Shown here: positions 5,537-43,728 of the stretch, piece by piece
Layout: each line of letters starts with the position of its first letter
Numbering within the stretch: position 1 is the stretch's first letter
Source of the DNA: a virus
IMG/VR virus record: IMGVR_UViG_3300047564_001181
Coordinates: 1 to 64,000 of that record
Length of the DNA stretch: 64,000 nt
Direction: 5' to 3' (one strand)
The notes under the pieces: model-generated
What the model was told of the DNA's origin: nothing
Seen by the model: the letters and a program-made list of their open reading frames with translations, nothing else
Databases searched by the model: none
Position numbers and translations under genes: made by a program

Positions 5537-5558
5537 TGTGAGACCTATCCTGTATCTT
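5537..5558 (+). promoter_or_regulatory. RecA-NDp/PafBC-like promoter 1
   Basis: TGTGAGAC, 8 nt, TATCTT. This is the most divergent left element of the set (G for C at position 4). The ATG of the next gene is 25 nt after the -10 box, preceded by AAAGGAAG. Confidence 0.65.
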
Positions 5559-5583
5559 TGGACACATAAGAAAGGAAGTTTCA

Positions 5584-5730
5584 ATGTTTGAAATGGAACT
5601 ATTAGATGAACTACTAGATGTAGATGTCAATGAATGCTCTGTATGTAATGCCCTCTCTGTTCCTCGTGAATGTAAGTCTTGTGGAATGGATACTTGTGCT
5701 ATCTGTGTTAGTTGCGAATACTGCGACTAA
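5584..5730 (+). CDS. Cys-rich zinc-ribbon microprotein
   Basis: 48 aa. An acidic helix (residues 2-14) is followed by four CxC/CxxC knuckles (CSVC, CKSC, CAIC, CEYC), i.e. eight cysteines, enough for two zinc ions. The ribosome-binding site GAAAGGAAG lies before the ATG. Probably a metal-binding adaptor that docks on a host protein; target unknown. It belongs to a scattered family of Cys-rich products in this island. Confidence 0.65.
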   Translation: MFEMELLDELLDVDVNECSVCNALSVPRECKSCGMDTCAICVSCEYCD

Positions 5731-5752
5731 TGTCAGACCTATCTGCTACACT
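5731..5752 (+). promoter_or_regulatory. RecA-NDp/PafBC-like promoter 2
   Basis: TGTCAGAC, ctatctgc, TACACT. It starts at the base right after the stop of the preceding gene; TGC before the -10 gives an extended -10. Confidence 0.75.
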
Positions 5753-5780
5753 CTCCCTACCTACTAAAGAAAGAAACAAA

Positions 5781-5981
5781 ATGGATAAGCAAATCTGCAC
5801 CCTTGAAATCGTAATTGATAATACGCCTTACTACTATGAGGCTCATTCATACCAGCGTGTTGCCGAAATCTTGCACGGGCAAATTGAAACTCTAAATAAA
5901 CTAAATGAACTTTATCCGCAAACCTATGGTAAAAAGTCAATTGACACTTTCACAATTCACTACTTTCAGGAAGTAAAATAA
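5781..5981 (+). CDS. Hypothetical phage protein
   Basis: 66 aa from ATG 5781 with AAAGAAAGA upstream; a longer reading frame from 5712 would run through the promoter and is rejected. Mixed alpha/beta, with a phrase TLEIVIDNTPYYYEAHS. No family recognised. First gene of a four-gene unit ending at the GC palindrome at 6482. Confidence 0.65.
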   Translation: MDKQICTLEIVIDNTPYYYEAHSYQRVAEILHGQIETLNKLNELYPQTYGKKSIDTFTIHYFQEVK

Positions 5982-6299
5982 TTGTTTGACTTATCTTTCA
6001 TAACTGACCCATTAGCAACTATTGCTCAATGGGTTGGCTATGGTCTAATCGGTATCTTTATTGTTGGCTCACTATTCCTATTAGTTGTTGTGCCTGTAAT
6101 GTTCAAGATGGCAGCCGTATCGTTTGCTCGTGTGTTAGTTGTAGAGACTAGCAATCTACTAAGCAAATCAGGATTAGCAAATCAATTTAGCAATGCTGTT
6201 GATAGTGTTAGCAAGGCAAGCAATGAACTAACAAAGGCAATGCAAAAGCAAAACACTTATCAAGTTATCAAGTTAGATGAGGAGAAGATAAATGCTTGA
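5982..6299 (+). CDS. Membrane protein with long cytoplasmic helix
   Basis: 105 aa, TTG start directly after the previous stop, with AGGAAG at a good distance. A strong transmembrane helix spans residues about 19-42 (YGLIGIFIVGSLFLLVVVPV). The C-terminal half is a polar helix rich in Ser/Asn/Ala (FSNAVDSVSKASNELTKAM). Topology suggests a membrane anchor for an oligomeric coiled coil. Confidence 0.6.
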   Translation: MFDLSFITDPLATIAQWVGYGLIGIFIVGSLFLLVVVPVMFKMAAVSFARVLVVETSNLLSKSGLANQFSNAVDSVSKASNELTKAMQKQNTYQVIKLDEEKINA

Positions 6300-6390
6300 G
6301 ATACTATTCCTAATCATAGGCTTTGCAATGGGACATCTATTTGCAACTAATAAATCATTGACACAAAAACTAAATGAATTAGATAGATAA
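6292..6390 (+). CDS. Single-helix membrane microprotein
   Basis: 32 aa. The start overlaps the preceding gene by 8 nt and has GAGGAGA upstream, an excellent ribosome-binding site. The hydrophobic helix LEILFLIIGFAMGHLF is followed by a short polar tail. Resembles the MEI-type microproteins at 6391, 10720 and 11505. Confidence 0.55.
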   Translation: MLEILFLIIGFAMGHLFATNKSLTQKLNELDR

Positions 6391-6456
6391 ATGGAAATAG
6401 TAATTCTAACAGTGTTAGTTCTATTTGCAATTGCTGTAATGACTAACCATAAGTAA
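6391..6456 (+). CDS. 21-aa MEI-type membrane microprotein
   Basis: Starts at the base after the preceding stop. Sequence begins MEIVILTVLVLFAIA and ends TNHK: one hydrophobic helix and a four-residue polar tail. Near-identical in design and length to the products of 10720-10785 and 11505-11570. All three are last in their unit, with a GC palindrome 25-35 nt further on. Confidence 0.5.
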   Translation: MEIVILTVLVLFAIAVMTNHK

Positions 6457-6481
6457 CACCCGCCCAGGGCGACATGCCCGA

Positions 6482-6495
6482 GCGGGGTCCCCCGC
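6482..6495. repeat. GC palindrome 1
   Basis: GCGGGGTCCCCCGC. It is preceded by a second hairpin, GGGC-GACAT-GCCC (6468-6479), so the element is bipartite. A DnaA-box-like TGTGGATAA follows at 6497. Confidence 0.8.
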
Positions 6496-6496
6496 C

Positions 6497-6505
6497 TGTG
6501 GATAA
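6497..6505 (-). other. Isolated DnaA-box-like site
   Basis: TGTGGATAA, the reverse complement of the consensus TTATCCACA, directly after GC palindrome 1. The same pairing is seen at 8929. Confidence 0.4.
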
Positions 6506-6573
6506 CTCTTGTCAAATCGTGTCCACCATTTGGACGGCGTGTCTTGCTTATTGCGAATACTTTGCAAGTAGTA

Positions 6574-6588
6574 TCTCATTATTTGGAA
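6574..6588. promoter_or_regulatory. Operator-like dyad, copy 1
   Basis: TCTCATTATTTGGAA: imperfect dyad of the form TCTCA-N5-TGRGA shared with 7412, 11722 and 11861. It lies 16 bp before a -35 box. Confidence 0.35.
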
Positions 6589-6603
6589 TAACGGCGTGTC
6601 AAG

Positions 6604-6632
6604 TTGAAATCTATCTCTAAATAGTGTATCTT
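6604..6632 (+). promoter_or_regulatory. Sigma-A-type promoter
   Basis: TTGAAA (6604-6609), 17 bp, TATCTT (6627-6632). The ATG at 6660 follows with GAAAGGAAG. It is the only unit before 11.5 kb in the island whose promoter is of the classic type. Confidence 0.65.
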
Positions 6633-6659
6633 TAGCCATAGATAGAAAGGAAGTTCCAA

Positions 6660-6815
6660 ATGCACGGAAACTCAAAGTTCAAACTCACTCAGCAACTGAT
6701 TGACGCTCAGCGTGGATTAGAAATGCAATTAGAGCGTGACCCTTCAAATGATAGAATGGTTGAATACTACAAGAAAGAAATCTCTCGCCTGACCAAGCGT
6801 GTCTATGGCGTGTAA
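6660..6815 (+). CDS. Small basic helical protein
   Basis: 51 aa, all helix-forming and rich in Lys/Arg/Gln (LTQQLIDAQRGLEMQLERD ... YYKKEISRLTKRV). Good ribosome-binding site GAAAGGAAG. Similar short amphipathic proteins are common in actinobacteriophages. Possibly binds nucleic acid or a host complex. Confidence 0.6.
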   Translation: MHGNSKFKLTQQLIDAQRGLEMQLERDPSNDRMVEYYKKEISRLTKRVYGV

Positions 6816-6837
6816 TGTCAGACCCTTGTGCTACACT
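6816..6837 (+). promoter_or_regulatory. RecA-NDp/PafBC-like promoter 3
   Basis: TGTCAGAC, ccttgtgc, TACACT, starting at the base after the previous stop; ATG 26 nt after the -10. Confidence 0.75.
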
Positions 6838-6863
6838 CTCACCCTAACGAAAGGAAAACTAAG

Positions 6864-7034
6864 ATGAACTTAGAAAAACAAAATCAAATCAAAGACTTAC
6901 TGAAAGTCTGTTATTCAAATGAAAAAGAAATTGTATTAGACGCAAGATTTTTTGGAATGTGTCAGGCTATGCTTACTGATGAGCAAGCAGACACTATGAT
7001 TTCATACATACAAAAATGGATTGAGGAAAAATAA
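6864..7034 (+). CDS. Hypothetical small helical protein
   Basis: 56 aa from ATG 6864 (CGAAAGGAAAAC upstream). Two helices (KQNQIKDLLKVCY; LTDEQADTMISYIQKWI). No family recognised. Followed without a gap by the Cys-rich gene at 7035. Confidence 0.6.
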   Translation: MNLEKQNQIKDLLKVCYSNEKEIVLDARFFGMCQAMLTDEQADTMISYIQKWIEEK

Positions 7035-7190
7035 ATGGGTGCAGTAAAAAATGCTCTAATTGAAATTCTAGAATGTAAATTGTGTTATGGTAAAGGTTAC
7101 TCAGGTTGGGCTAATACCGAAGGTGACTATGAGTTTGAATGGTGCGAATGCAACCCCTACGAGTTTGATGTAAGTGAATGGAGTAACTAA
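7035..7190 (+). CDS. Zinc-ribbon microprotein (DnaJ-like knuckles)
   Basis: 51 aa. CKLCYGKGYSGW and CECNPYEF resemble one CxxCxGxG repeat of DnaJ-type zinc domains. The ATG is right after the preceding stop, and its own stop overlaps the next ATG (TAATG). May imitate a DnaJ/DnaK-type zinc module; that is inference. Confidence 0.55.
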   Translation: MGAVKNALIEILECKLCYGKGYSGWANTEGDYEFEWCECNPYEFDVSEWSN

Positions 7191-7399
7191 TGGGATACAT
7201 AGAAATAATTTCATTTGATGAAAATGGAGTAACTAAAAAAAATCTTAATGAATTAAATTTTGATGAAAGAGTTTCATTAGAGGTTGATGTAGATTTAGCA
7301 TTATCAGGATTTGAAAAAGTGCAACTGCTCTGCGTAAATTGTTTAGTTGAAATTCCTAGTGGCTCAGGATTTTATTGCAAAAAACATTTACCCAAGTAG
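7190..7399 (+). CDS. Hypothetical protein with C-terminal CxxC...CxxH
   Basis: 69 aa. N-terminal 45 residues acidic and mixed; C-terminal CVNC-x12-CKKH would bind one metal. Coupled to the previous gene by TAATG. Last gene of its unit; an operator-like dyad and GC palindrome 2 follow. Confidence 0.6.
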   Translation: MGYIEIISFDENGVTKKNLNELNFDERVSLEVDVDLALSGFEKVQLLCVNCLVEIPSGSGFYCKKHLPK

Positions 7400-7411
7400 T
7401 GAGATGAGCTG

Positions 7412-7426
7412 TCTCACCATTTGAAA
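7412..7426. promoter_or_regulatory. Operator-like dyad, copy 2
   Basis: TCTCACCATTTGAAA, abutting GC palindrome 2. Confidence 0.3.
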
Positions 7427-7438
7427 CGGGGGACCCCG
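7427..7438. repeat. GC palindrome 2
   Basis: CGGGG-GA-CCCCG, followed after 3 nt by the CRP-like site at 7442. Confidence 0.75.
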
Positions 7439-7441
7439 CCG

Positions 7442-7457
7442 TGTGATGCACATCACA
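7442..7457. promoter_or_regulatory. CRP/GlxR-like site 1
   Basis: TGTGA-TGCACA-TCACA, a perfect match to the TGTGA-N6-TCACA consensus of the CRP/FNR family. It lies 71 bp before promoter 4, and AAAA follows the right half-site. Confidence 0.6.
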
Positions 7458-7528
7458 AAAATAGTTATACTCACAAGTAACTAAACTGCCTAAAAATAGG
7501 TACAAAATAGGACATATTCAATTTCCAA

Positions 7529-7550
7529 TGTCAGACCCCCTATGTATACT
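7529..7550 (+). promoter_or_regulatory. RecA-NDp/PafBC-like promoter 4
   Basis: TGTCAGAC, cccctatg, TATACT. Drives a 93-nt leader that contains the folded element at 7567-7623. Confidence 0.75.
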
Positions 7551-7566
7551 CAGACCTATAAACACC

Positions 7567-7623
7567 GAGAGTGTGAGCCTCGCAAATAATCCCGAAAGGG
7601 TGAGCCGAGCAAATAAAACTCTC
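7567..7623 (+). ncRNA. Structured leader RNA, copy 1
   Basis: Outer helix GAGAGT/ACTCTC (7567-7572 with 7618-7623), inner helix CTCG/CGAG (7579-7582 with 7606-7609), and apical CCC-GAAA-GGG (7591-7600). Two internal loops have the same pair of strands, GTGAGC opposite CAAATAA(A/T). Copy 2 at 9054 keeps the loops and changes the helices. It ends 19 nt before the ATG at 7643. A regulatory leader (riboswitch-like or protein-binding) is the likeliest role. Confidence 0.7.
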
Positions 7624-7642
7624 ACTAAAGAAAGGTAATCAG

Positions 7643-7786
7643 ATGATTGCACTAGAAGTAATAGAAAGTGCAGAAACTATTTTCTGCGAAATTCATTCAG
7701 ACTATGTTCATAGTGCTGAGTGTGTTGATTGCGAAATGAGTTCGTGTGCCGATTGCTTACGCTCATTCGGTTGCGATAACTGCTAA
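7643..7786 (+). CDS. Zinc-ribbon microprotein behind leader RNA 1
   Basis: 47 aa. CEIH, CVDC, CADC and CDNC knuckles in residues 15-47 follow a short N-terminal helix. It resembles the product of 5584-5730 in its C-terminal pattern (SCADC ... GCDNC versus TCAIC ... YCD). AAAGAAAGG upstream. Expression may be gated by the leader RNA. Confidence 0.65.
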   Translation: MIALEVIESAETIFCEIHSDYVHSAECVDCEMSSCADCLRSFGCDNC

Positions 7787-7824
7787 CCATAACTAAATAA
7801 ATTTTACTAAGAAAGGAAGTCACT

Positions 7825-8022
7825 ATGACTAACTCAATAACTATCACCCTTGAAGGTCAGTATGCTGGCTGGAATGTAACCTACTTTGAAGGTTGCACCG
7901 TTTGCGAAAATGCAAAGGCTGAAAATAAGCCTCCGTTTATCTATCACAATAACTGTCTCTATGGTGGACGCAAAGTCGGTCACTCATCTGACGGTCACTG
8001 CACCGCTGACGCTTGCTACTAA
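7825..8022 (+). CDS. Cys/His-rich small protein
   Basis: 65 aa. N-terminal beta strands (ITITLEGQYAGWNVTYF) then CTVCENA, HNNC, GHSSDGHC and CY. Probable single zinc site with His ligands. AAGAAAGGAAG upstream. No promoter of its own is clear; 38 nt after the preceding gene. Confidence 0.65.
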   Translation: MTNSITITLEGQYAGWNVTYFEGCTVCENAKAENKPPFIYHNNCLYGGRKVGHSSDGHCTADACY

Positions 8023-8037
8023 AATAGCAAGTTTCAA

Positions 8038-8059
8038 TGTCAGACCCCCCTGCTATACT
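8038..8059 (+). promoter_or_regulatory. RecA-NDp/PafBC-like promoter 5
   Basis: TGTCAGAC, ccccctgc, TATACT. The spacer ends in TGC, giving an extended -10. ATG 30 nt after the -10. Confidence 0.8.
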
Positions 8060-8089
8060 AATCCCATAACCAAACGAAAGGAAAACTCT

Positions 8090-8215
8090 ATGAATCTCCA
8101 AGAGTTTCAAGCCAAAGTCCAAGCAGACCGCTTGGCACAAGCGGAACAACTCCGCAAAGAAAACCTTGCAAAGTCTGCAAAGTTTCTCGCTACTCTAACT
8201 AAGGAAGGAAAGTAA
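8090..8215 (+). CDS. Short amphipathic helical protein
   Basis: 41 aa, almost wholly helical with alternating Lys/Glu/Ala (FQAKVQADRLAQAEQLRKE). Longer upstream starts would pass through promoter 5 and are rejected. Similar in length and style to the product of 9806-9937. CGAAAGGAAAAC upstream. Confidence 0.6.
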   Translation: MNLQEFQAKVQADRLAQAEQLRKENLAKSAKFLATLTKEGK

Positions 8216-8216
8216 A

Positions 8217-8393
8217 ATGTCATCACTCTTTTACTTTGATTTTTATTTTGATACAATCAACGGATTGATTATCGAATTCCCATTTCTGAATCTGCAAATT
8301 GCTCCGTCAGTTATTTATCTTTTTATTTTGACAATTATCGCTTTGCGAATTCGTAAAGTTTATTTTCTAGATAGAAAGCGTGGTCGCAGATAA
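8217..8393 (+). CDS. Small membrane protein
   Basis: 58 aa. Aromatic N-terminus (LFYFDFYFD), then one transmembrane helix (IAPSVIYLFILTIIAL, residues 31-46) and a strongly basic tail (RKVYFLDRKRGRR). Stop overlaps the next ATG (TAATG). Confidence 0.55.
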   Translation: MSSLFYFDFYFDTINGLIIEFPFLNLQIAPSVIYLFILTIIALRIRKVYFLDRKRGRR

Positions 8394-8557
8394 TGATGAC
8401 TAGAAAAGACTATGTGCGAACCGCTGAAATTCTAAACACATTCAAAGATGAAATTGATAAAACAATTTTTGAAGATTTGATTTTCAACTTTGGCGAAATG
8501 TTTGCAATTGATAATCCAAATTTTGACCCTGCAAGATTTTCTCAGGCTTGCAAATAA
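8393..8557 (+). CDS. Phage TRKDYV-family protein, copy 1
   Basis: 54 aa. MTRKDYVRTAEILN at the start and NPNFDPARFSQAC at the end define a short helical family that is widespread in phages. A paralogue is encoded at 10469-10645 with the same start and end motifs. Function unknown. ATGATG allows starts one codon apart. Confidence 0.7.
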   Translation: MMTRKDYVRTAEILNTFKDEIDKTIFEDLIFNFGEMFAIDNPNFDPARFSQACK

Positions 8558-8596
8558 TCTAAACCCGCAGGGCGTGTCGGATTGACACGCCCGAGG

Positions 8597-8610
8597 GCGG
8601 GGGACCCCGC
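8597..8610. repeat. GC palindrome 3
   Basis: GCGGGG-GA-CCCCGC, preceded by a second hairpin GGCGTGTC-ggatt-GACACGCC. Confidence 0.8.
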
Positions 8611-8693
8611 ATAACGATTTAATAACAAAAAGATACACCCTATAGGATAAGCTTGAATTATCTACCCAAAATAGGGCAATCACCTATTTTCAA

Positions 8694-8715
8694 TGTCAGA
8701 CCCCCTCGCTAGTAT
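8694..8715 (+). promoter_or_regulatory. RecA-NDp/PafBC-like promoter 6
   Basis: TGTCAGAC, cccctcgc, TAGTAT. The transcript start region can fold (TTGGGTTTCCAACCCA), unlike most others. Confidence 0.7.
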
Positions 8716-8746
8716 TGGGTTTCCAACCCACTACGAAAGGTTCACT

Positions 8747-8860
8747 GTGAGCAACTACTATGATGATGACTACTACGAGCAGGAAGGTTCGGTCACCTAC
8801 ATTGGTGACTGCTCCTGCTATGACAACTACATCTGTCGGAGTTGTTTGCAAAAGTGGTAA
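8747..8860 (+). CDS. Short Cys-rich protein, GTG start
   Basis: 37 aa. Asp/Tyr-rich N-terminus (SNYYDDDYYEQEG) then CSC and CRSC. CGAAAGG lies upstream of the GTG at a proper distance. A single zinc knuckle is plausible. The coding call rests mainly on the promoter, ribosome-binding site and family resemblance. Confidence 0.5.
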   Translation: MSNYYDDDYYEQEGSVTYIGDCSCYDNYICRSCLQKW

Positions 8861-8912
8861 GGGGCTAATTGGTAGGGCGACCAAAACATTTGGCTGCCCT
8901 ACCAAATCCAAA

Positions 8913-8927
8913 GGCGGGGGACCCCCC
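8913..8927. repeat. GC palindrome 4
   Basis: GGCGGGGGACCCCCC; the right arm lacks the final GC. A DnaA-box-like site follows at 8929. Confidence 0.7.
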
Positions 8928-8928
8928 T

Positions 8929-8937
8929 TGTGGATAA
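8929..8937 (-). other. Isolated DnaA-box-like site
   Basis: TGTGGATAA, overlapping the end of the region of GC palindrome 4 and 4 nt before the CRP-like site at 8942. Confidence 0.4.
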
Positions 8938-8941
8938 CTCG

Positions 8942-8957
8942 TGTGACGGACATCACA
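8942..8957. promoter_or_regulatory. CRP/GlxR-like site 2
   Basis: TGTGA-CGGACA-TCACA, perfect half-sites, 50 bp before promoter 7. Confidence 0.6.
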
Positions 8958-9007
8958 AAAAAAATATTTATCCACAGCCCATTTTGTCCCGATTTTAGGG
9001 CTTCCAA

Positions 9008-9029
9008 TGTCAGACCCCCCTTGTATAAT
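9008..9029 (+). promoter_or_regulatory. RecA-NDp/PafBC-like promoter 7
   Basis: TGTCAGAC, cccccttg, TATAAT, the best -10 hexamer of the set. Leads into structured leader RNA copy 2. Confidence 0.8.
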
Positions 9030-9053
9030 TCTACTATGAAAATTAAATAGTGA

Positions 9054-9115
9054 GCGTTTAGGTGAGCCTAGCAAATAAGTCAGAAATGAATGAGCCTAGC
9101 AAATAAACTAAACGC
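9054..9115 (+). ncRNA. Structured leader RNA, copy 2
   Basis: Outer helix GCGTTTAG/CTAAACGC (9054-9061 with 9108-9115), inner helix CTAG/CTAG (9068-9071 with 9096-9099), and apical TCA-GAAA-TGA (9080-9089). The internal-loop strands GTGAGC and CAAATAAA are identical to copy 1, while all three helices differ by compensatory changes. It ends 33 nt before the ATG at 9149. Confidence 0.7.
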
Positions 9116-9148
9116 CACAAAATAAACTTACTAAAGAAAGGTTCTTAA

Positions 9149-9271
9149 ATGAATACTGAAAATGAAAATAAAGAAATCACTTGTGAAATGTGTTTAATCT
9201 TTGGTGAATACACTCACATTGCTTATGTAAATGGTCACGGATACCATTGCACTTGTGACCGCTGTTTCTAA
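9149..9271 (+). CDS. Zinc-ribbon microprotein behind leader RNA 2
   Basis: 40 aa. CEMC (residues 12-15) and HCTCDRC (34-40) with a short beta segment between, consistent with one zinc ribbon. AAAGAAAGG upstream. Like the gene at 7643, it is the first gene after the folded leader. Confidence 0.6.
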   Translation: MNTENENKEITCEMCLIFGEYTHIAYVNGHGYHCTCDRCF

Positions 9272-9276
9272 CAGCG

Positions 9277-9298
9277 TGTCATACCCCTATGCTACAAT
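9277..9298 (+). promoter_or_regulatory. RecA-NDp/PafBC-like promoter 8
   Basis: TGTCATAC, ccctatgc, TACAAT. T replaces G at position 6 of the left element. Confidence 0.65.
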
Positions 9299-9324
9299 TT
9301 CTCCCATAACGAAAGGTAAACTAA

Positions 9325-9450
9325 ATGTTTTGTAATGTATGTAATGATTTTATTGATAGTGCATTTGATGAAGAGGTAACTTGCATAGATTGTGCGTTGT
9401 CTGATTTTGATTTAGAAATTGAAGAGATTGAATTGGAAGAGGTATTCTAA
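9325..9450 (+). CDS. Cys-rich protein with acidic tail
   Basis: 41 aa. CNVC and CIDC, 18 residues apart, then a Glu/Ile/Leu-rich helix (FDLEIEEIELEEV). CGAAAGG upstream. Zinc ribbon plus an acidic docking helix, as in the product of 5584-5730 with the order reversed. Confidence 0.6.
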   Translation: MFCNVCNDFIDSAFDEEVTCIDCALSDFDLEIEEIELEEVF

Positions 9451-9594
9451 ATGATGTTCTACAATGGATTTAATTTACTTATTGATTTAATTTTGATTAG
9501 CGTTACTGCGTTATGGTTTCACGGCGTTGGATATCGTAAGGCTAAGCACTACTATCAGAATAAATTCAAGGGATATTTCAAACCCCCGTTCTAG
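9451..9594 (+). CDS. Small membrane protein
   Basis: 47 aa, starting at the base after the previous stop. One hydrophobic helix (LLIDLILISVTALWF) and a basic aromatic tail (YRKAKHYYQNKFKGYF). Last gene before GC palindrome 5. Confidence 0.55.
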   Translation: MMFYNGFNLLIDLILISVTALWFHGVGYRKAKHYYQNKFKGYFKPPF

Positions 9595-9606
9595 CGACAC
9601 GCCCGA

Positions 9607-9621
9607 GCGGGGTCCCCCCGC
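9607..9621. repeat. GC palindrome 5
   Basis: GCGGGGTCCCCCCGC, preceded by GCGACACGCCC and followed 22 nt later by GACACGCC. Confidence 0.75.
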
Positions 9622-9759
9622 CAGCTCCGCTGTCAAATCGACACGCCGTAAATCCTAAAATTGTTATCAAATGTTTACCAAAATCGGACAAATGCCTTAT
9701 TCGAGTGTGGCGAAGGTCACAAACTAAATTCGGACAAATGCGACTTTCGAGTTGCCGAA

Positions 9760-9781
9760 TGTCAGACCCCTATGGTATCTT
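9760..9781 (+). promoter_or_regulatory. RecA-NDp/PafBC-like promoter 9
   Basis: TGTCAGAC, ccctatgg, TATCTT; ATG 24 nt after the -10. Confidence 0.75.
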
Positions 9782-9805
9782 TAGCACATAAAGAAAGGAA
9801 GTCTA

Positions 9806-9937
9806 ATGACAAACTCATTCAAGTCACTTGATGAACTCAAGCAATTCGTGCTTGCTGAAAAAATTGCTAACTATGAACAACAAAAATTAGTTGAGCAAAA
9901 ATTGTTCGCTTCACTACAAAAGAAAGGTAACAACTAA
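9806..9937 (+). CDS. Short amphipathic helical protein
   Basis: 43 aa, a single long helix (LDELKQFVLAEKIANYEQQK ... LFASLQKK). AAAGAAAGGAAG upstream. TAATG couples it to the next gene. Similar style to the 8090-8215 product. Confidence 0.6.
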   Translation: MTNSFKSLDELKQFVLAEKIANYEQQKLVEQKLFASLQKKGNN

Positions 9938-10089
9938 TGTTAGATTGCGATTGGTGCGAAAAATATTTCGCTATGCAAGATTTATTCAATGTAGACTACT
10001 TAGGTGGTTTCGCTAATGTGTTATGTGCAAAGTGTGTTGATGAGGCACACAAAATGTTTGCAGATACACTAGAAGGAGTGTGGCAGTAA
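9937..10089 (+). CDS. Zinc-ribbon microprotein
   Basis: 50 aa. CDWC at residues 4-7 and CAKC at 33-36, then an acidic helix. Coupled at both ends by TAATG overlaps (9937, 10089), so it belongs to a tight three-gene set. Confidence 0.65.
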   Translation: MLDCDWCEKYFAMQDLFNVDYLGGFANVLCAKCVDEAHKMFADTLEGVWQ

Positions 10090-10241
10090 TGTTGCTAAAC
10101 ACTTATGCTAAAACTCAACTAATGTGTTGCTATTGCGAAGGCTTATTGCCTAGTGATGCAAAATGGTGCGAGAGTTGCCAAGAATACAAAGGCGTAATGA
10201 CTATCGCAAACTTTCAAGAAATCTATGGAGAGGAATACTAG
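10089..10241 (+). CDS. Zinc-ribbon microprotein
   Basis: 50 aa. CCYC and CESC separated by 13 residues, then a helical tail (YKGVMTIANFQEIYGEE). Same length and position in the operon as the previous product, but little sequence identity beyond the metal ligands. Confidence 0.65.
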   Translation: MLLNTYAKTQLMCCYCEGLLPSDAKWCESCQEYKGVMTIANFQEIYGEEY

Positions 10242-10242
10242 A

Positions 10243-10455
10243 ATGTATCCAATTACTGAATTGCTAAAAGGTGGCTCAATGTACACTATCAAAAGTGGAG
10301 TGTTCATTGAAGACATTGACCGAGTAGAATTTGACGCTTGGGGTAAGTTGCGAATTCGTGGCTATCACACCGAATGGTATGGAATACTTAGCCATTCACC
10401 AAAGCGTGAGCGTTGGACTATTCTTGACCCTAACGACATTGACCTAAGTGCATAA
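10243..10455 (+). CDS. Hypothetical beta-rich protein
   Basis: 70 aa from ATG 10243 (GGAGAGGA upstream). Strand pattern FIEDIDRVEFDAWGKLRIRG and a conserved-looking C-terminal block (REREWTI-like, here KRERWTILDPNDI). No family recognised. Confidence 0.6.
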   Translation: MYPITELLKGGSMYTIKSGVFIEDIDRVEFDAWGKLRIRGYHTEWYGILSHSPKRERWTILDPNDIDLSA

Positions 10456-10468
10456 GGAGAAATAAAAA

Positions 10469-10645
10469 ATGATGACACGCAAAGACTATGTAGCAACTGC
10501 AGAAATTCTAAATGGAAATAGAATTTTTATTCACCCTGCAACATTCGCAGAATTAGTAAATGAATTTGGAAATTATTTTGAAAATGATAATCCACGATTT
10601 GATTTTGCAAGATTTGAAAATGCTTGCAACGGAAAGGAAAAATAA
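10469..10645 (+). CDS. Phage TRKDYV-family protein, copy 2
   Basis: 58 aa. MTRKDYVATAEILNG and NPRFDFARFENAC match the 8393-8557 product at both ends, with a different middle. AAGGAGA upstream. Confidence 0.7.
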   Translation: MMTRKDYVATAEILNGNRIFIHPATFAELVNEFGNYFENDNPRFDFARFENACNGKEK

Positions 10646-10646
10646 A

Positions 10647-10715
10647 ATGGATTTATTAGCATTAGCAATAATTATGGCAATTGCAATTCCGTTTTTTATT
10701 CACTTGGAAAAATAA
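10647..10715 (+). CDS. 22-aa membrane microprotein
   Basis: MDLLALAIIMAIAIPFFIHL plus EK: a single hydrophobic helix. GGAAAGGAAA upstream is a good ribosome-binding site. Next to the MEI-type peptide at 10720. Confidence 0.45.
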   Translation: MDLLALAIIMAIAIPFFIHLEK

Positions 10716-10719
10716 TAAA

Positions 10720-10785
10720 ATGGAAATTGTAATTTTATTTTTTGTTTTACTTTTTATTTTTGCAATTGGAACTAATTCAAAATAA
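10720..10785 (+). CDS. 21-aa MEI-type membrane microprotein
   Basis: MEIVILFFVLLFIFAIGTN then SK. Same start, length and polar tail as the 6391 and 11505 peptides. Ribosome-binding site weak (GGAAAAATAATAAA). GC palindrome 6 follows 32 nt later. Confidence 0.45.
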   Translation: MEIVILFFVLLFIFAIGTNSK

Positions 10786-10817
10786 AAAAGTGTATCGCAA
10801 CACGAGCAGCTGCGAGG

Positions 10818-10832
10818 GCGGGGGACCCCCGC
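10818..10832. repeat. GC palindrome 6
   Basis: GCGGGGG-A-CCCCCGC, a perfect 7-bp-arm palindrome. Confidence 0.8.
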
Positions 10833-10868
10833 AAGCCCTGGATGTCAAGCCGACACTCCGATAAATTT

Positions 10869-10884
10869 TGTGAGATTAATCACA
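10869..10884. promoter_or_regulatory. CRP/GlxR-like site 3
   Basis: TGTGA-GATTAA-TCACA, perfect half-sites, 38 bp before promoter 10. Confidence 0.6.
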
Positions 10885-10922
10885 AAAGTCGTGTCCGAAT
10901 TGGTAGGATTCTGAGTTGTGGA

Positions 10923-10944
10923 TGTCAGTGGCTTATGGTATCTT
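10923..10944 (+). promoter_or_regulatory. RecA-NDp/PafBC-like promoter 10 (closest to consensus)
   Basis: TGTCAGTG, gcttatgg, TATCTT. It matches TGTCRGTG-N8-TANNNT at every fixed position. Confidence 0.8.
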
Positions 10945-10968
10945 TAGACCCTAACGAAAGGGGTCTTA

Positions 10969-11505
10969 ATGACTAACTACTTTGAAAAATACTTAGCAAT
11001 TGCTAAGAGTGCAACACTATCTCAGGTTGAACAAGCAACGCAATGGTATGCAGACGCAGAATTATTAGCGAATGATGTAATGCGAATTCTAAACTCTCGT
11101 GGCGTTGAATGTAATCTTGAACAAGCCTCGTCAATTGTATCCTCATTCTCACCTCGTAATCGTTGGTCACGCAATGTAGTGCAAGCATTAGAATTTGCGA
11201 ATGGTGGATTGCCTAATGGATTGCAAAATAATTTGCGAATGGCACAATACTCACTCGTGCAAGGTTTCAGTGCGTTGCGTGGAATGAAAACTAATGCATT
11301 CGCTCGTGCAATTGCAGGTGATGATAGTGCAGTTACAATTGATGTGTGGATGATAAAATCTGCTGAACTAAATAAAAATTCTGTAAATAAAACTGAATAC
11401 GCAGAATTAGTTAGTGCAGTTAATTTAGTTGCGGATGAATTAAAATTAACTCCACGAGTAACGCAAGCGTTAATCTGGATTGTGTTTAGAGGTAGTGCAT
11501 ACTAA
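10969..11505 (+). CDS. Helical phage protein with HhH-like region (DUF7178-like)
   Basis: 178 aa, the largest product between thyX and the DUF932 gene apart from the 18.3-kb protein. Residues about 55-125 contain SIVSSFSPRNRW and KTNAFARAIAGDDSAVTIDV. The second phrase recalls the helix-hairpin-helix and catalytic-Asp region of HhH-GPD DNA glycosylases. I recognise the protein type from actinobacteriophages but not a proven activity. It sits behind the promoter that best matches the DNA-damage consensus, which fits a DNA-repair role. CGAAAGGGG upstream of ATG 10969; stop overlaps the next ATG (TAATG). Confidence 0.7.
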   Translation: MTNYFEKYLAIAKSATLSQVEQATQWYADAELLANDVMRILNSRGVECNLEQASSIVSSFSPRNRWSRNVVQALEFANGGLPNGLQNNLRMAQYSLVQGFSALRGMKTNAFARAIAGDDSAVTIDVWMIKSAELNKNSVNKTEYAELVSAVNLVADELKLTPRVTQALIWIVFRGSAY

Positions 11506-11570
11506 TGGAAATTTTATTTTTACTAATTGCATTATTATTTTTAATTGCAAAATTAACAAACACAAAATAA
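11505..11570 (+). CDS. 21-aa MEI-type membrane microprotein
   Basis: MEILFLLIALLFLIAKLTN then TK. Coupled by TAATG to the preceding gene. Third member of the family; GC palindrome 7 follows 23 nt later. Confidence 0.5.
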   Translation: MEILFLLIALLFLIAKLTNTK

Positions 11571-11593
11571 AAAAGCTAGGGCGACACGCCCAA

Positions 11594-11622
11594 GCGGGGG
11601 GACCCCCGTATCGGGTCCCCCG
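11594..11622. repeat. GC palindrome 7, double
   Basis: GCGGGGGGACCCCCG followed at once by CGGGTCCCCCG, i.e. two palindromes in tandem, the only doubled copy. Confidence 0.75.
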
Positions 11623-11637
11623 CCCCTTTTGTACTAA

Positions 11638-11674
11638 TTTACGAGAGGCTAATTTTATTCACTGGAATTTTACG
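11638..11674 (+). repeat. TTACGA / ATCACTGGAA-type repeat
   Basis: TTTACGA (11638-11644), then TTCACTGGAATTTTACGA. Divergent copy of the repeat that is tandem in the putative origin (23550-23655). Confidence 0.5.
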
Positions 11675-11684
11675 ATAGGCAAAC

Positions 11685-11713
11685 AAAAAGGCTGGAACTT
11701 GTCCAGCCTTTAA
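11685..11713 (+). terminator. Rho-independent-like terminator
   Basis: AAAGGCTGG-aacttgt-CCAGCCTTT, 9-bp stem, then TAAGATTTCT. It closes the 10969-11570 unit. Confidence 0.6.
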
Positions 11714-11721
11714 GATTTCTG

Positions 11722-11736
11722 TCTCACTATTTGGGA
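11722..11736. promoter_or_regulatory. Operator-like dyad, copy 3
   Basis: TCTCACTATTTGGGA, inverted relative to copy 4 at 11861 with 124 bp between them. Confidence 0.35.
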
Positions 11737-11860
11737 TTTGTCAACAAAGCGATAATGAAACAAAATAATAACAAAATGATAACAATTTCCAAACTATCCC
11801 TTTCGCCCTATTTTTATTAGTAGCCAATTTTACCAAAAAGTAACCAAATTGTCAAGGGTG

Positions 11861-11874
11861 TCCAAATAGTGAGA
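11861..11874. promoter_or_regulatory. Operator-like dyad, copy 4
   Basis: TCCAAATAGTGAGA, reverse complement of TCTCACTATTTGGA, 15 bp before the -35 box of the next promoter. Confidence 0.35.
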
Positions 11875-11889
11875 TTATTCTAAATTATC

Positions 11890-11919
11890 TTGACAAGCAT
11901 AGGCTCTATGGTGTAAGGT
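11890..11919 (+). promoter_or_regulatory. Promoter of a leaderless gene
   Basis: TTGACA (11890-11895), 18 bp, TAAGGT (11914-11919), then AGCCCT and the ATG at 11926. Confidence 0.75.
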
Positions 11920-11925
11920 AGCCCT

Positions 11926-12066
11926 ATGAAACCAATACTCTCACCCAAAGCAACGCCTGAGCAATTACAGGCACGACTTGAACTACGCCGTTCAGGTGCG
12001 TCAGGCTTGCATAAAAATAAGAAAGCATACTCCCGAAAGGAAAAGCACAAGAATAATGAATACTAA
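11926..12066 (+). CDS. Basic small protein, leaderless
   Basis: 46 aa, 14 Lys/Arg, with no ribosome-binding site and only 6 nt between -10 box and ATG. Phrase TPEQLQARLELRRSGASGLH then a Lys-rich tail (HKNKKAYSRKEKHKN). Such short basic tails are common in phage proteins that bind nucleic acid. Overlaps the next gene by 11 nt. Confidence 0.65.
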   Translation: MKPILSPKATPEQLQARLELRRSGASGLHKNKKAYSRKEKHKNNEY

Positions 12067-12241
12067 GTCATACTTTCTATCAGAGTTAGATTACTCAACC
12101 ATAGTTTCTGCACTTGCAAAACTTGCAGACTTTCACTTTGAAAAGTCAAAGACTTTGAAGCGTGAACAAGATGTTCAATTTCACTATGAACAATTTCAAA
12201 AAGTAATGGAAGTAAAGTTCAACCTACGGGAGCAAAAATGA
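12056..12241 (+). CDS. Hypothetical helical protein
   Basis: 61 aa from ATG 12056; GAAAGGAAAAG lies inside the end of the preceding gene. Two helices (YSTIVSALAKLADFHF; REQDVQFHYEQFQKVME). Overlaps the next start by 4 nt (ATGA). Confidence 0.6.
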   Translation: MNTKSYFLSELDYSTIVSALAKLADFHFEKSKTLKREQDVQFHYEQFQKVMEVKFNLREQK

Positions 12242-12579
12242 CATATGCACTAAAAGTAACTACAAGTGGTGAGCGTATCGGTATCAACTATGACGCTGAC
12301 GAATCCTATGAAACTATCTCACAAGCAGTTGGTGGTTGGATTGAATGTGTTCGCCTTACACCTACGCTTGATATGTGGGTAAATGAGGAAGGCAAGTTAG
12401 ACGGGTTAGACTACAACCCTGACGCTACTGCTATCTTTTGGTCACACTTTGGCTTGATGTCAGATGTGATTGTCGGTGATGTTATTTTTACTTCACACGA
12501 TGATGAGGGAAATACAACCTCTCTTGAAAATGAACAAATGGAATATTTACAAAAACACATAGGAGCATTCAGTGAATGA
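12238..12579 (+). CDS. DUF3846-like protein
   Basis: 113 aa. The pattern AVGGWIECVRLT, MWVNEEGKLDGLDYNPDAT and VIVGDVIF matches DUF3846, a small phage and actinobacterial domain of unknown function that begins with an order like yIqaiVGGyIE. Full length for the family. Coupled to both neighbours by overlaps. Confidence 0.8.
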   Translation: MTYALKVTTSGERIGINYDADESYETISQAVGGWIECVRLTPTLDMWVNEEGKLDGLDYNPDATAIFWSHFGLMSDVIVGDVIFTSHDDEGNTTSLENEQMEYLQKHIGAFSE

Positions 12580-12781
12580 TTTTTGGAGACAATACTATTC
12601 AAGTCTTGAAGGTGCAACAATTACCAAATTCGCAGGTATGAACGATGCGGAAATGGGAGACGGATTCCCAGCCTTTATGGTGCGTTTCGCAAATGGTGAT
12701 GAAGGTATCATTGAGATTTCTCGTGACCCTGAAGGTAATGGTGGCGGATTTATTTTCGGATTAAATATGCCGCAGCAATAA
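12572..12781 (+). CDS. Hypothetical protein, GTG start
   Basis: 69 aa. GTG at 12572 overlaps the DUF3846 gene by 8 nt with AGGAG upstream. Beta-rich, with GFPAFMVRFANGDEGIIEIS, a pattern that suggests a small sheet domain. Last gene before a 216-nt regulatory gap. Confidence 0.6.
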   Translation: MNDFWRQYYSSLEGATITKFAGMNDAEMGDGFPAFMVRFANGDEGIIEISRDPEGNGGGFIFGLNMPQQ

Positions 12782-12840
12782 TTTTTTAAATTATTTTTTA
12801 AATTTAATTTAAATTATTTCTAAATTTTATTTAGAAAGCT

Positions 12841-12851
12841 GGGGGTCCCCC
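12841..12851. repeat. GC palindrome 8
   Basis: GGGGG-T-CCCCC, 8 nt before the CRP-like site at 12860, after an AT-only stretch. Confidence 0.75.
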
Positions 12852-12859
12852 GCCCGCTT

Positions 12860-12875
12860 TGTGATTTTAATCACA
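12860..12875. promoter_or_regulatory. CRP/GlxR-like site 4
   Basis: TGTGA-TTTTAA-TCACA, 70 bp before promoter 11. The sequence that follows (CACAAAAATA...AGTAACTAAA...GGACAAAATAGGACAT) is shared with the region after site 1. Confidence 0.6.
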
Positions 12876-12945
12876 AAAATATTTCTACCAAGTAGTAACT
12901 AAACCCCATAAAATTGGGACAAAATAGGACATTCTCAAAAGGTGA

Positions 12946-12967
12946 TGTCAGACCCCCCTGCTAGTAT
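12946..12967 (+). promoter_or_regulatory. RecA-NDp/PafBC-like promoter 11
   Basis: TGTCAGAC, ccccctgc, TAGTAT; ATG 30 nt after the -10. Confidence 0.75.
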
Positions 12968-12997
12968 TGGGCTATGCCCAAACGAAAGGAAATGCAA

Positions 12998-13132
12998 ATG
13001 ATTATTTGCTCAAAATGTGATGAAGTTCTTTACACCGACACTATGCCCGAAGGCTTTGACGAAAATGTATTTGTAATGTGTGCCTCTTGTGCATACGATT
13101 ACACAATGTCAGACCCTAATGGTATTCTCTAA
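12998..13132 (+). CDS. Zinc-ribbon microprotein; its 3' end encodes the next promoter
   Basis: 44 aa. CSKC (4-7) and CASC (29-32). The last codons (MSDPNGIL) are written by promoter 12: TGTCAGAC and TATTCT lie inside the reading frame, with TAA overlapping the -10 region. ACGAAAGGAAAT upstream. Confidence 0.6.
   Translation: MIICSKCDEVLYTDTMPEGFDENVFVMCASCAYDYTMSDPNGIL
13107..13128 (+). promoter_or_regulatory. RecA-NDp/PafBC-like promoter 12
   Basis: TGTCAGAC, cctaatgg, TATTCT; drives the WhiB gene, ATG 26 nt after the -10. Confidence 0.7.
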
Positions 13133-13154
13133 CCACTAACCCGAAAGGAAAAAA

Positions 13155-13379
13155 ATGTTCTCACTCCCCGTTGATGTAGCAACCCCTTGCTCAACTATTC
13201 CACTTGCCGAAGCCGACAAGTTATTTTTTAGCGAAAGCCCAAAGCGTATCGCTGTTGCAAAAAATCTCTGTGCCTCTTGCCCTATCACCTCAAAATGTTT
13301 GCAGTTCGCACTTGATGAGGAAATTGAGTTTGGCATTTTTGGTGGCACAACTCCACAAGAAAGAAAGGTAATGCTCTAA
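13155..13379 (+). CDS. WhiB-like Fe-S transcription factor, short form
   Basis: 74 aa. Four Cys of the [4Fe-4S] cluster: C12, then CASCPITSKC (C39, C42, C48), followed by the GIFGG turn (residues 60-64) and QERK. WhiB proteins bind the sigma-A region 4 and change promoter choice. This one lacks most of the basic C-terminal DNA-binding tail, as in several phage WhiB proteins that act as anti-activators. CCGAAAGG upstream. Stop overlaps the next ATG (TAATG). Confidence 0.9.
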   Translation: MFSLPVDVATPCSTIPLAEADKLFFSESPKRIAVAKNLCASCPITSKCLQFALDEEIEFGIFGGTTPQERKVML

Positions 13380-26446: not shown

Positions 26447-26603
26447 CTACCTTCATCATATATAAATCTACATCATTTAATGCACCATTGTAAGTCCATG
26501 TCCACCCAACCATACAGGGTCCGTCAACTTCATCATAGACAACCCAGTAGTAGGACTTTTTCCAAAATGGTTTTTTAGTATCTCTAAAAATTTTATACTT
26601 CAA
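26424..26603 (-). CDS. Small aromatic beta protein, TTG start
   Basis: 59 aa from TTG 26603 (AAAGG 8 nt upstream); upstream ATGs would need overlaps of more than 80 nt with the glycosylase gene. KYKIFRDTKKPFWKKSYYWV, CMVGWTWTYNGALNDVD. No family recognised. Confidence 0.55.
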   Translation of the reverse strand: MKYKIFRDTKKPFWKKSYYWVVYDEVDGPCMVGWTWTYNGALNDVDLYMMKVDDGRYFK

Positions 26604-27093
26604 CCGTTTGCCTTTGTTCGTGTGTACTCCAGAAATATGTACATCCTTTATCTGGGCAACAAACATATTCCATAAAGATATGACCTTCAGCTTCATATTC
26701 AGCATAGTGGGCTGGGTCTTTTTCCCATAAGCGACCACGATGTGTAATCATAACTCGGTTATGCATATCTTCATCTTCCATCCAGAATGGTCTTTCGTAT
26801 GGCTGGTCAACAAAGTGACGCTTATAGGTATCCTTAATTACTTCCCAATTATTTTCCCACTTATATCCACGCTGTTCCATCTCTGTACGAATAGCCTTTA
26901 AGTAGAAATATAGGTCGTGCTCATAGCCCTTAAACATTTTAACTGCTGGATGATTACGCCATGCATTGCTAGGAGACTCTCCAGCCAGCACAGTCATAAT
27001 CTGACGACCCTCTAGTAATTGTTTAACTAAGCGTTTATAGTCTAAAACTTCTGCACAATGCTTAAAGTTTGCTTCTGGTAAAAATACTTGCAT
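26593..27093 (-). CDS. Pyrimidine-dimer DNA glycosylase family protein (DenV-like)
   Basis: 166 aa. MQVFLPEANF, VLDYKRLVKQLLEGRQIM (residues 17-34), WRNHPAVKMFKGYE (45-58) and IRTEMEQRGY (68-77) follow the layout of the PF03013 pyrimidine-dimer glycosylase family. Such enzymes excise UV-induced dimers. T4 endonuclease V uses the amino group of Thr2; here residue 2 is Gln, so catalysis may differ or be lost. The C-terminal 60 residues add CCPDKGCTYFW, a possible zinc site. Confidence 0.8.
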   Translation of the reverse strand: MQVFLPEANFKHCAEVLDYKRLVKQLLEGRQIMTVLAGESPSNAWRNHPAVKMFKGYEHDLYFYLKAIRTEMEQRGYKWENNWEVIKDTYKRHFVDQPYERPFWMEDEDMHNRVMITHRGRLWEKDPAHYAEYEAEGHIFMEYVCCPDKGCTYFWSTHEQRQTVEV

Positions 27094-42149: not shown

Positions 42150-42221
42150 CTGGAATGATAGGATTCGAACCTATAGCCCGCCGATTAACAGTCGGCTGCT
42201 CTGCCATTGAGCTACACTCCA
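42150..42221 (-). tRNA. tRNA-Asn (GTT)
   Basis: Acceptor TGGAGTG/CATTCCA (one G-T pair), TAGCTCAATGGCAGAGC D-arm, anticodon loop CTGTTAA with GTT, T-loop TTCGAAT, discriminator G. CCA not encoded. Confidence 0.93.
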
Positions 42222-42260
42222 AAAGTGGATAGGTGGATTGCTTTTTACCACCACGGATAA

Positions 42261-42363
42261 GCCAGCAATACATCTAAGTACCGCTTTCATCCGACCAGAC
42301 CTTTGTTCCGCTAAGAACAGAGACGCTAATCTCAGACCTGTGCTTTACTCTCCCCTTGCTGGC
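42261..42363 (-). ncRNA. Second structured RNA candidate between tRNAs
   Basis: Closing helix GCCAGCAA (42261-42268) with TTGCTGGC (42356-42363), 8 bp. Inside are two adjacent hairpins with the same 6-nt loop (plus-strand CGCTAA): TGTTC/GAACA (42304-42319) and GAGA/TCTC (42320-42333). Flanked by AGACC repeats. Confidence 0.5.
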
Positions 42364-42387
42364 AAAGAGATTCGTTCAGCCATATCC

Positions 42388-42409
42388 CAAATTCTTCGTC
42401 AAGAATTTG
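42388..42409 (-). terminator. Hairpin after tRNA-Thr
   Basis: CAAATTCTT-gacg-AAGAATTTG on the minus strand, 9 perfect pairs; no T-run, so it may be a processing signal instead. Confidence 0.45.
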
Positions 42410-42413
42410 TTTG

Positions 42414-42485
42414 AGCCTTCTATCCGATTTGAACGGATGACCCTCGCATTACAAGTGCGATGCTCTACCACTGAGCTAAGAAGGC
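42414..42485 (-). tRNA. tRNA-Thr (TGT)
   Basis: Acceptor GCCTTCT/AGAAGGC, TAGCTCAGTGGTAGAGC, anticodon loop CTTGTAA with TGT, T-loop TTCAAAT, discriminator T. CCA not encoded. Confidence 0.93.
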
Positions 42486-42532
42486 GAACTCCATAAAGCA
42501 AATATACCCTATGGAGAACGATTTGTCAAGAG

Positions 42533-43327
42533 TTACTTGACTTTATTTGCAAGTTTTTTAAACTCTGCGAATGTCTTTGGACCAACTACAGCATCAGCAG
42601 TTCCAAACTTTGGATTTGCTTTTTGCCAAGCAACTACTGCTTTTCTAGTTACAGGACCATACTGACCATCTACTGCTTTACCAGTAAATCCAAGAGCCTT
42701 CTGAATAACCTTAATGTATTCTCCAACCTCGCCTGGCTGAATTGGGTCATTTGGATATGCTGCTGGGTCATGTGGCTTTTCAGCCTTTGGCTTAATTGCC
42801 TTTACTGGACCTGGGAACTTAGGACGACCAAAGCCAACAATGCTGACCTGAACGCCCTTCTTGTTCTTTTTGTATCCACGAATCTTCTTTAGAACCATAC
42901 CACCATTTCTTTGGTCTCCAGTAACACCAGCAGTGTTACCTTCAACAGTAGTTACGGTTCCATCGCCATTGTCTTTAATAACAATACCGACATGAGAAAT
43001 CCTCTCAACGCCATCTCCAGGAAAATTGAAATAAGCGACATCTCCTGGTTGTGGCTTTGCATCATCTGCATCAGACCATGCTTTTGCCTTTTCAAATGCT
43101 GCTGCACCGTTAGGAGTATAGATTGTTGCTTTATCTCCAGGAAGTTTAAATCCTGCCTGATTTGCACACCAAATTACGAATGAACCACACCATGCAACAA
43201 AGTTAGCACCAGTGAATGCACCGTATTTAGTTTGATTATCTTTTGGACCTTCAACAACGCCGACTTCTTTGAGAGCAACCTCAACAAATTTTTCGGCAGT
43301 GCCAAGTTCCGCTGGTTTCTTAGCCAT
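42533..43327 (-). CDS. CHAP endolysin with peptidoglycan-binding domain
   Basis: 264 aa from ATG 43327 (AGAGGTAAA upstream). Residues 5-150: CHAP amidase/endopeptidase domain, catalytic Cys in FVAWCGSFVIWCANQAGF, His in ISHVGIVI, and GDVAYFNFPGDG before it. A Pro/Lys linker (about 165-195), then a PG_binding_1 domain (GEYIKVIQKALGFTGKAVDG, YGPVTRKAVVAWQKAN). No signal peptide, so export depends on a holin. It lies between tRNA genes, away from the holin-like genes at 28 kb. Confidence 0.93.
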   Translation of the reverse strand: MAKKPAELGTAEKFVEVALKEVGVVEGPKDNQTKYGAFTGANFVAWCGSFVIWCANQAGFKLPGDKATIYTPNGAAAFEKAKAWSDADDAKPQPGDVAYFNFPGDGVERISHVGIVIKDNGDGTVTTVEGNTAGVTGDQRNGGMVLKKIRGYKKNKKGVQVSIVGFGRPKFPGPVKAIKPKAEKPHDPAAYPNDPIQPGEVGEYIKVIQKALGFTGKAVDGQYGPVTRKAVVAWQKANPKFGTADAVVGPKTFAEFKKLANKVK

Positions 43328-43372
43328 ATATTTTTTACCTCTTCTAATTAGATTTGATAGCTTGGCTATCAG

Positions 43373-43445
43373 CACCCTATACGAGATTCGAACTCGTGGT
43401 CTCTTCCGTGAGAGGGAAGCGTCCTTACCGCTAGACCAATAGGGC
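43373..43445 (-). tRNA. tRNA-Glu (CTC)
   Basis: Acceptor GCCCTAT/ATAGGGT (G-T at the end), D-arm TGGTCTAGCGGTAAGGA, anticodon loop CTCTCAC with CTC, T-loop TTCGAAT, discriminator G. CCA not encoded. GAG is the less usual Glu codon in AT-rich genomes. Confidence 0.93.
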
Positions 43446-43469
43446 TTGGATATAGATTATATCATTTAG

Positions 43470-43727: not shown

Positions 43728-43728
43728 G

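Follow-up and report, generated by a model that had tools for sequence, protein, structure and literature searches.

Which factor reads the promoters of a block of small genes in an uncultured virus? We asked this of the first 64,000 bases (the window) of the 95,186-base virus record IMGVR_UViG_3300047564_001181. A first-pass annotation of the window had reported twelve sites on the + strand, each an 8-mer followed by exactly 8 nt and a TANNNT hexamer, and had assigned them to the mycobacterial RecA-NDp/PafBC class of DNA-damage promoters, whose consensus is tTGTCRgtg - 8 nt - TannnT (PMC5656591). The analysis below suggests that a large group of uncultured actinobacterial viruses borrows a host DNA-damage activator for small, early-type genes.

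Promoter sites in the window

We recovered all twelve sites where the annotation had placed them, with the 8-mers it gave and the exact 8-nt gap, and nine of them (5731–13128) are exact copies of TGTCAGAC-N8-TANNNT. Start codons lie 24–31 nt past the hexamer at ten sites, with ribosome-binding sites (RBSs) that are mostly of the GAAAGG type; the other two (7529 and 9008) are followed by structured leaders of 92 and 119 nt. The sites and the genes assigned to them are as follows.

5537–5558, +: doubtful site, TGTGAGAC-N8-TATCTT, for the gene at 5584–5730
5731–5752, +: −26 element TGTCAGAC and −10 TACACT with extended TGC; drives 5781–5981
6816–6837, +: −26/−10 promoter; drives 6864–7034
7529–7550, +: −26/−10 promoter; leads to the structured leader 7559–7640, then the gene 7643–7786
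8038–8059, +: −26/−10 promoter; drives 8090–8215
8694–8715, +: −26/−10 promoter; drives the GTG-start gene 8747–8860
9008–9029, +: −26/−10 promoter; leads to the structured leader 9045–9125, then the gene 9149–9271
9277–9298, +: weak member, TGTCATAC-N8-TACAAT with extended TGC; drives 9325–9450
9760–9781, +: −26/−10 promoter; drives 9806–9937
10923–10944, +: canonical-form promoter TGTCAGTG-N8-TATCTT; drives the DUF7178 gene 10969–11505
12946–12967, +: −26/−10 promoter; drives 12998–13132, or a leaderless message from 12974
13107–13128, +: −26/−10 promoter; drives the WhiB gene 13155–13379
11891–11928, +: for contrast, a canonical promoter TTGACA-N18-TAAGGT with a leaderless ATG at 11926, by direct reading

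A genome scan for TGTCAG followed by TANNNT, the check that the annotation had proposed, gave ten pairs at spacing 8 and no more than two at each of the other spacings between 3 and 15. Over the whole record the exact TGTCAGAC-N8-TANNNT arrangement occurs nine times on the + strand and not at all on the − strand, against an expectation from dinucleotide shuffles of 0.04 sites per genome strand and 0.002 for the 7.7-kb region that contains all nine. Since TGTCAGAC by itself, searched for with a tolerance of one mismatch, shows no enrichment in the window (54 seen against 51 expected), the signal lies in the pair and its spacing.

The TGTCAG core is present in ten of the twelve sites, and we examined the other two in a set comprising the window and 139 related viral loci. 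At site 5537 the core is TGTGAG, which is unenriched in this set (14 against 14.4 in the control), and TTGCAA stands exactly 17 nt before TATCTT, making it the sole window site with a credible −35; site 5537 is therefore probably an ordinary −35/−10 sigma-A promoter. For TGTCAT, the core of site 9277, the count is 17 against 2.0 in the control when TGn is required, and membership of the promoter class as a weak representative is plausible. At site 12946 an in-frame leaderless ATG (12974) rivals the RBS-served ATG at 12998. The promoter at 11891 indicates that the phage has ordinary sigma-A promoters too, within the array region.

Many of the small genes behind the promoters (5584–13379, +) encode tiny cysteine-rich, zinc-ribbon-like proteins of 37–52 residues; such genes start at 5584, 7643, 8747, 9149, 9325 and 12998. 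G+C-rich inverted repeats of the gggggacccc type recur between the small operons (window positions 6460–12860) and are probably terminators.

Promoter anatomy and conservation

We built a sequence logo from 657 non-redundant sites. It carries no information at the −35 position, and the −35 match at the sites is near background (mean 2.95 of 6, against 2.73 at other TGnTAnnnT places). The bases just upstream are A-rich, the T and G of an extended −10 are present in 85% and 87% of the sites, and the hexamer reads TANRNT. An initiator follows exactly where PafBC-type geometry predicts it, with Y(−1) in 86%, A(+1) in 79% and T(+2), the +1 lying exactly 7 nt past the hexamer. In 88 sites an ATG stands 6 or 7 nt past the hexamer, against about 0–1 at neighbouring offsets, which is what leaderless messages from +1 would give. 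The start position is thus backed twice, by the initiator and by the leaderless ATGs, and is supported without experiment. We rejected two other readings of this region: a dyad around the −10 that is suggested by eye (TATGCT-gaa-AGCATA) is not in excess over the 657 sites (ratio 1.03 at that register), and ATGTCA taken as a −35 would leave a spacer of 11 bp, which is too short.

Conservation was assessed in 19 related viral loci fetched by homology to the DUF7178 protein behind 10923, without use of the motif. In these loci TGTC[AG]G precedes TGnTAnnnT 183 times at spacing 8 and 0–5 times at other spacings, so the 8-nt spacing, which puts the element near −26, holds in the window and its relatives alike. 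When all hexamers 16 nt upstream of TGnTAnnnT are ranked, TGTCAG (139, 247-fold) and TGTCGG (44, 132-fold) come first, followed by TGTCTG (18); the top two are the two hexamers to which TGTCRG, the consensus core of RecA-NDp/PafBC promoters, expands. The additional counts at spacings 3, 10 and 13 are best explained by the same sites being read in a shifted register (TATGCT, TATAAT).

The same core emerged from a substitution analysis of the window and the 139 related loci. Of the 18 single-base variants of TGTCAG, strong enrichment is confined to TGTCGG (94 against 4.4), with TGTCAC, TGTCTG and TGTCAT mildly enriched. TGTCGG occurs mostly as TGTCGGTG (56 times) and never as TGTCGGAC. There are two forms, TGTCAG-ACCC and TGTC(A/G)G-TGG, whose positions are tightly coupled. 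In all loci, positions 7–10 of the motif fall into two coupled sets, ACCC or TGGG, that is, a C run or a G run. One form can stand in for the other at orthologous genes, a gene with TGTCAGAC in one genome having TGTCRGTG in a second, and promoters of both kinds occur in 24 of the 67 clusters of downstream proteins. The promoter of the DUF7178 gene, for instance, has TGTCAGTG in the window, TGTCGGTG in three related loci (L015, L022 and L029) and TGTCAGAC in further loci. The canonical TGTCGGTG or TGTCAGTG is found in sister phages, and nearly all array sites of L022 and L029 belong to the TGTCGG form. Near-complete relatives have most of their sites within a single block of about 5–15 kb.

In summary, the geometry, the core, the missing −35, the initiator, the leaderless starts, the conservation and the form swapping of the sites are established at the level of sequence. 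The assignment to the RecA-NDp/PafBC class is strongly supported by the consensus, the −26 position and the TGTCRG variation, with site 5537 as its doubtful member.

The virus and its host

The phage encodes ThyX, RecA, a DnaE-type polymerase, a DnaB helicase, a primase, tRNAs and a transfer-messenger RNA (tmRNA). Further features of the window are these.

13155–13379, +: WhiB-family gene (PF02467, 1.4e-16), a marker of an actinobacterial host
26593–27093, −: pyrimidine-dimer DNA glycosylase (PF03013)
42150–43800, −: tRNAs and a tmRNA with the tag GVTQNALALAA, with a manA-type RNA motif directly between tRNA genes
49194–49355, −: 53-residue helix-turn-helix (HTH) protein, conserved in Streptomyces and Rhodococcus phages

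A second WhiB of the phage lies at about 33.7 kb. The nearest isolated relatives are the Stanwilliamsviridae, Streptomyces phages, as judged by the DNA polymerase (about 55%) and the capsid protease (about 48%). Together, WhiB and these closest isolated relatives indicate an actinobacterial host. Given the low G+C, and given that WhiB-bearing phages have been described from lakes (PMC10202952), our guess would be freshwater or other aquatic Actinomycetota. The glycosylase and the phage RecA show an investment in DNA repair.

The array lies in a block of small + strand genes oriented opposite to the replication and structural genes, and a DUF932 gene near it has a homologue at the genome ends of many Streptomyces phages, in two copies. 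It is from this layout that we infer the term "early" for the array genes. The annotation's proposal that the promoter class was copied for early small genes is reasonable, its timing part being drawn from genome layout.

Distribution across viruses and bacteria

A scan of all viral contigs found the 18-base form TGTCAGACCCNTATGCTANNNT in at least 120 stretches, and in none when one base was added to the spacer. For the canonical form TGTCGGTGGNNTNTGNTANNAT the corresponding figures are at least 120 stretches and 8. Among the canonical matches listed, 115 new loci contain 993 sites at spacing 8, against 9–16 at spacings 5, 6, 7 and 9; three or more sites occur in 102 of the 115, TGTCGGTG is used 285 times and TGTCAGTG 124 times, and most loci have 35–45% G+C. 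Because these loci were chosen by the motif, the evidence lies in the further copies per locus and not in the first match. The whole collection of bacterial genomes gave one match to the 18-base consensus (Roseovarius), which we take as chance, and thus no sign of prophages of this kind.

Among 20 records of isolated actinophages we found no array, with 0–4 matches each, near the control. The exception is one good intergenic TGTCAGAC-N8-TAACCT site (TGTCAGACCCCTACGCTAACCT) in Microbacterium phage Savannah (ON081330, 33608–33629), which precedes an ERF recombination gene; the host is known and culturable, making this isolated phage a handy test case. A match at 55263 in phage Patience lies within a gene. 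In Rhodococcus phage Trina, the DUF932 gene is preceded by TTGACA-N17-TAAAGT. The sampled isolated actinophages use other promoters, and the array thus belongs to an uncultured group.

Which factor reads the element

At PafBC promoters, PafB binds the −26 motif and PafC holds domain 4 of sigma-A, placing PafBC between the DNA and that domain, and single-stranded DNA (ssDNA) activates PafBC (PMC11804915). The annotation had suggested that the phage might recruit a PafBC/WYL-type protein, a claim that gains indirect support here, with the protein predicted to be the host's. We detected no WYL domain in about 108 distinct phage records, several of them above 100 kb, although many are fragments and the result is not proof for each; the same search found WYL proteins in Corynebacterium glutamicum and other controls. 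An activator of this family would accordingly have to come from the host. On the simplest interpretation a host adapter is at work, PafBC being the one known to read the element. The annotation had also proposed that the phage could read the DNA-damage state of the host; ssDNA generated by the infection would do equally well.

We consider it probable that these are RecA-NDp/PafBC-type sigma-A promoters served by a host WYL adapter. In place of a −35 they would have the −26 element, made up of TGTCRG and a brief run of G or C, together with an extended −10, and transcription would start 7 nt past the hexamer. A sigma adapter of the host with WYL domains, most likely PafBC, would dock between the −26 element and domain 4 of sigma-A and bring host RNA polymerase to the early-type genes of the phage. 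Least certain is a gating of these genes by ssDNA, in which ssDNA derived from infection, through phage replication or host DNA breakdown, might be the ligand that activates PafBC. We put forward more tentatively the picture of widespread lytic actinophages whose early-type programme runs on host PafBC, ssDNA binding the WYL domains and switching on tens of promoters. If this is true, the host DNA-damage alarm is the phage's own go signal.

Two observations weigh against PafBC. The bases after the core in the window phage are mostly AC and not TG, the full canonical form occurring solely at 10923. Moreover, the sampled phages of Mycobacterium, Streptomyces, Gordonia, Rhodococcus, Arthrobacter and Microbacterium lack arrays, so that such exploitation is not observed in the kinds of host known to use PafBC. 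The phage might instead encode a non-WYL activator that reads the −26 element and adapts sigma-A, like MotA/AsiA of T4; the likeness to PafBC promoters would then be convergent, or the protein a diverged relative. A small DNA-binding protein could have gone unrecognised in every array phage, since most early proteins belong to no family, and this phage encodes two WhiB proteins and the 53-residue HTH protein. We rejected both as readers of the element, because arrays are missing from Gordonia and Mycobacterium phages that carry WhiB and from the sampled phages of Streptomyces and Rhodococcus, two groups in which the HTH protein is conserved. The WYL result is joined by the absence of any sigma region 4 over the cut-off in 20 records (MotA and AsiA models were outside this search), and the element matches the host consensus down to the R at position 5. 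A phage-encoded reader is on these grounds unlikely.

Another host regulator, such as a different WYL activator or ClgR, could also bind the element. Actinobacteria have about five WYL proteins each (PMC6789036), and ClgR reportedly recognises the mycobacterial recA P1 motif, as cited in PMC5656591. PafBC, however, is the factor placed structurally at the −26 element with sigma-A (PMC11804915), and we regard a different host regulator as quite improbable. That the sites are ordinary extended −10 sigma-A promoters needing no activator, with TGTCAG as a spacer preference or repressor site, is barely credible. The extended TGn in about 85% of sites and the highly variable −35 of many actinobacterial promoters (PMC10936776) would fit; the restriction of TGTCRG to a single spacing, from which few sites depart, argues against it, as does a −35 barely better than at other TGnTAnnnT places.

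We found no description of PafBC-type promoters in phages in the open-access literature. A host adapter acting at these arrays would connect the expression of phage genes, on a large scale and in viruses that are frequent in metagenomes, with a sigma adapter of the bacterial DNA-damage response. It predicts poor or late phage growth in a host without pafBC. PafBC, sigma-A and in vitro transcription systems already exist. The array also provides a sequence signature for recognising uncultured actinophages of this group.

Structured leader RNAs

Two of the promoters are followed by copies of a structured leader RNA.

7559–7640, +: structured leader RNA, its 4-bp core helix set between two UGAGCCnnGCAAAUAA strands; the outer stem and inner hairpin covary
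9045–9125, +: second copy, behind the promoter at 9008

The window and related loci contain 33 distinct paired copies, most of them 42–56 nt after a −26 promoter. In the leader, two UGAGCCUAGCAAAUAA strands face each other around the 4-bp helix. The outer stem and inner hairpin covary, with 88.8% of cells paired and 41 double changes; none of 500 shuffles reached this level and sliding controls were far lower. A single compensatory change is seen in the core CUAG/CUAG helix, at 7574 in the window copy. There was no match to an Rfam family, and the leader is a candidate new RNA element.

Comparison with known systems

Unlike the window phage, its Stanwilliamsviridae relatives (BillNye, Samisti12, Annadreamy) have no motif array, with 0–3 matches per genome, near the controls; several of them carry the DUF932 homologue at their genome ends. 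The TTGACA-like −35 of canonical sigma-A promoters is absent from the window sites other than 5537. In the middle promoters of T4, a MotA box acts together with AsiA in sigma appropriation, and T4 encodes its own activator. In both systems many copies of a promoter stand before phage genes, with a good −10 and an upstream element that lies closer than −35, and the normal −35 contact is bypassed; they differ in that no WYL or sigma gene was found in the array phages and in that the element equals a host regulon motif. The SARP regulator AfsR of Streptomyces is an adapter between DNA and sigma region 4 that compensates for a weak −35 (PMC10936776). Sigma adaptation offsetting a weak −35 would be common to both, whereas AfsR binds two direct repeats of the afs box and here there is one −26 element.

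The closest likeness is to the RecA-NDp/PafBC promoters themselves (recA P1 of Mycobacterium; Streptomyces). With these the phage sites share the TGTCRG core at −26, the gap of 8 nt between the 8-mer and TANNNT and the lack of a −35, and one window site and many sister phages have the full TGTCAGTG or TGTCGGTG. The phage versions differ in forming arrays of about 5–18 copies, in standing before small early-type genes and not DNA-repair genes, in the preference of the window phage for TGTCAGAC-CC, in a −10 that is usually extended by TGn, and in some leaderless starts.

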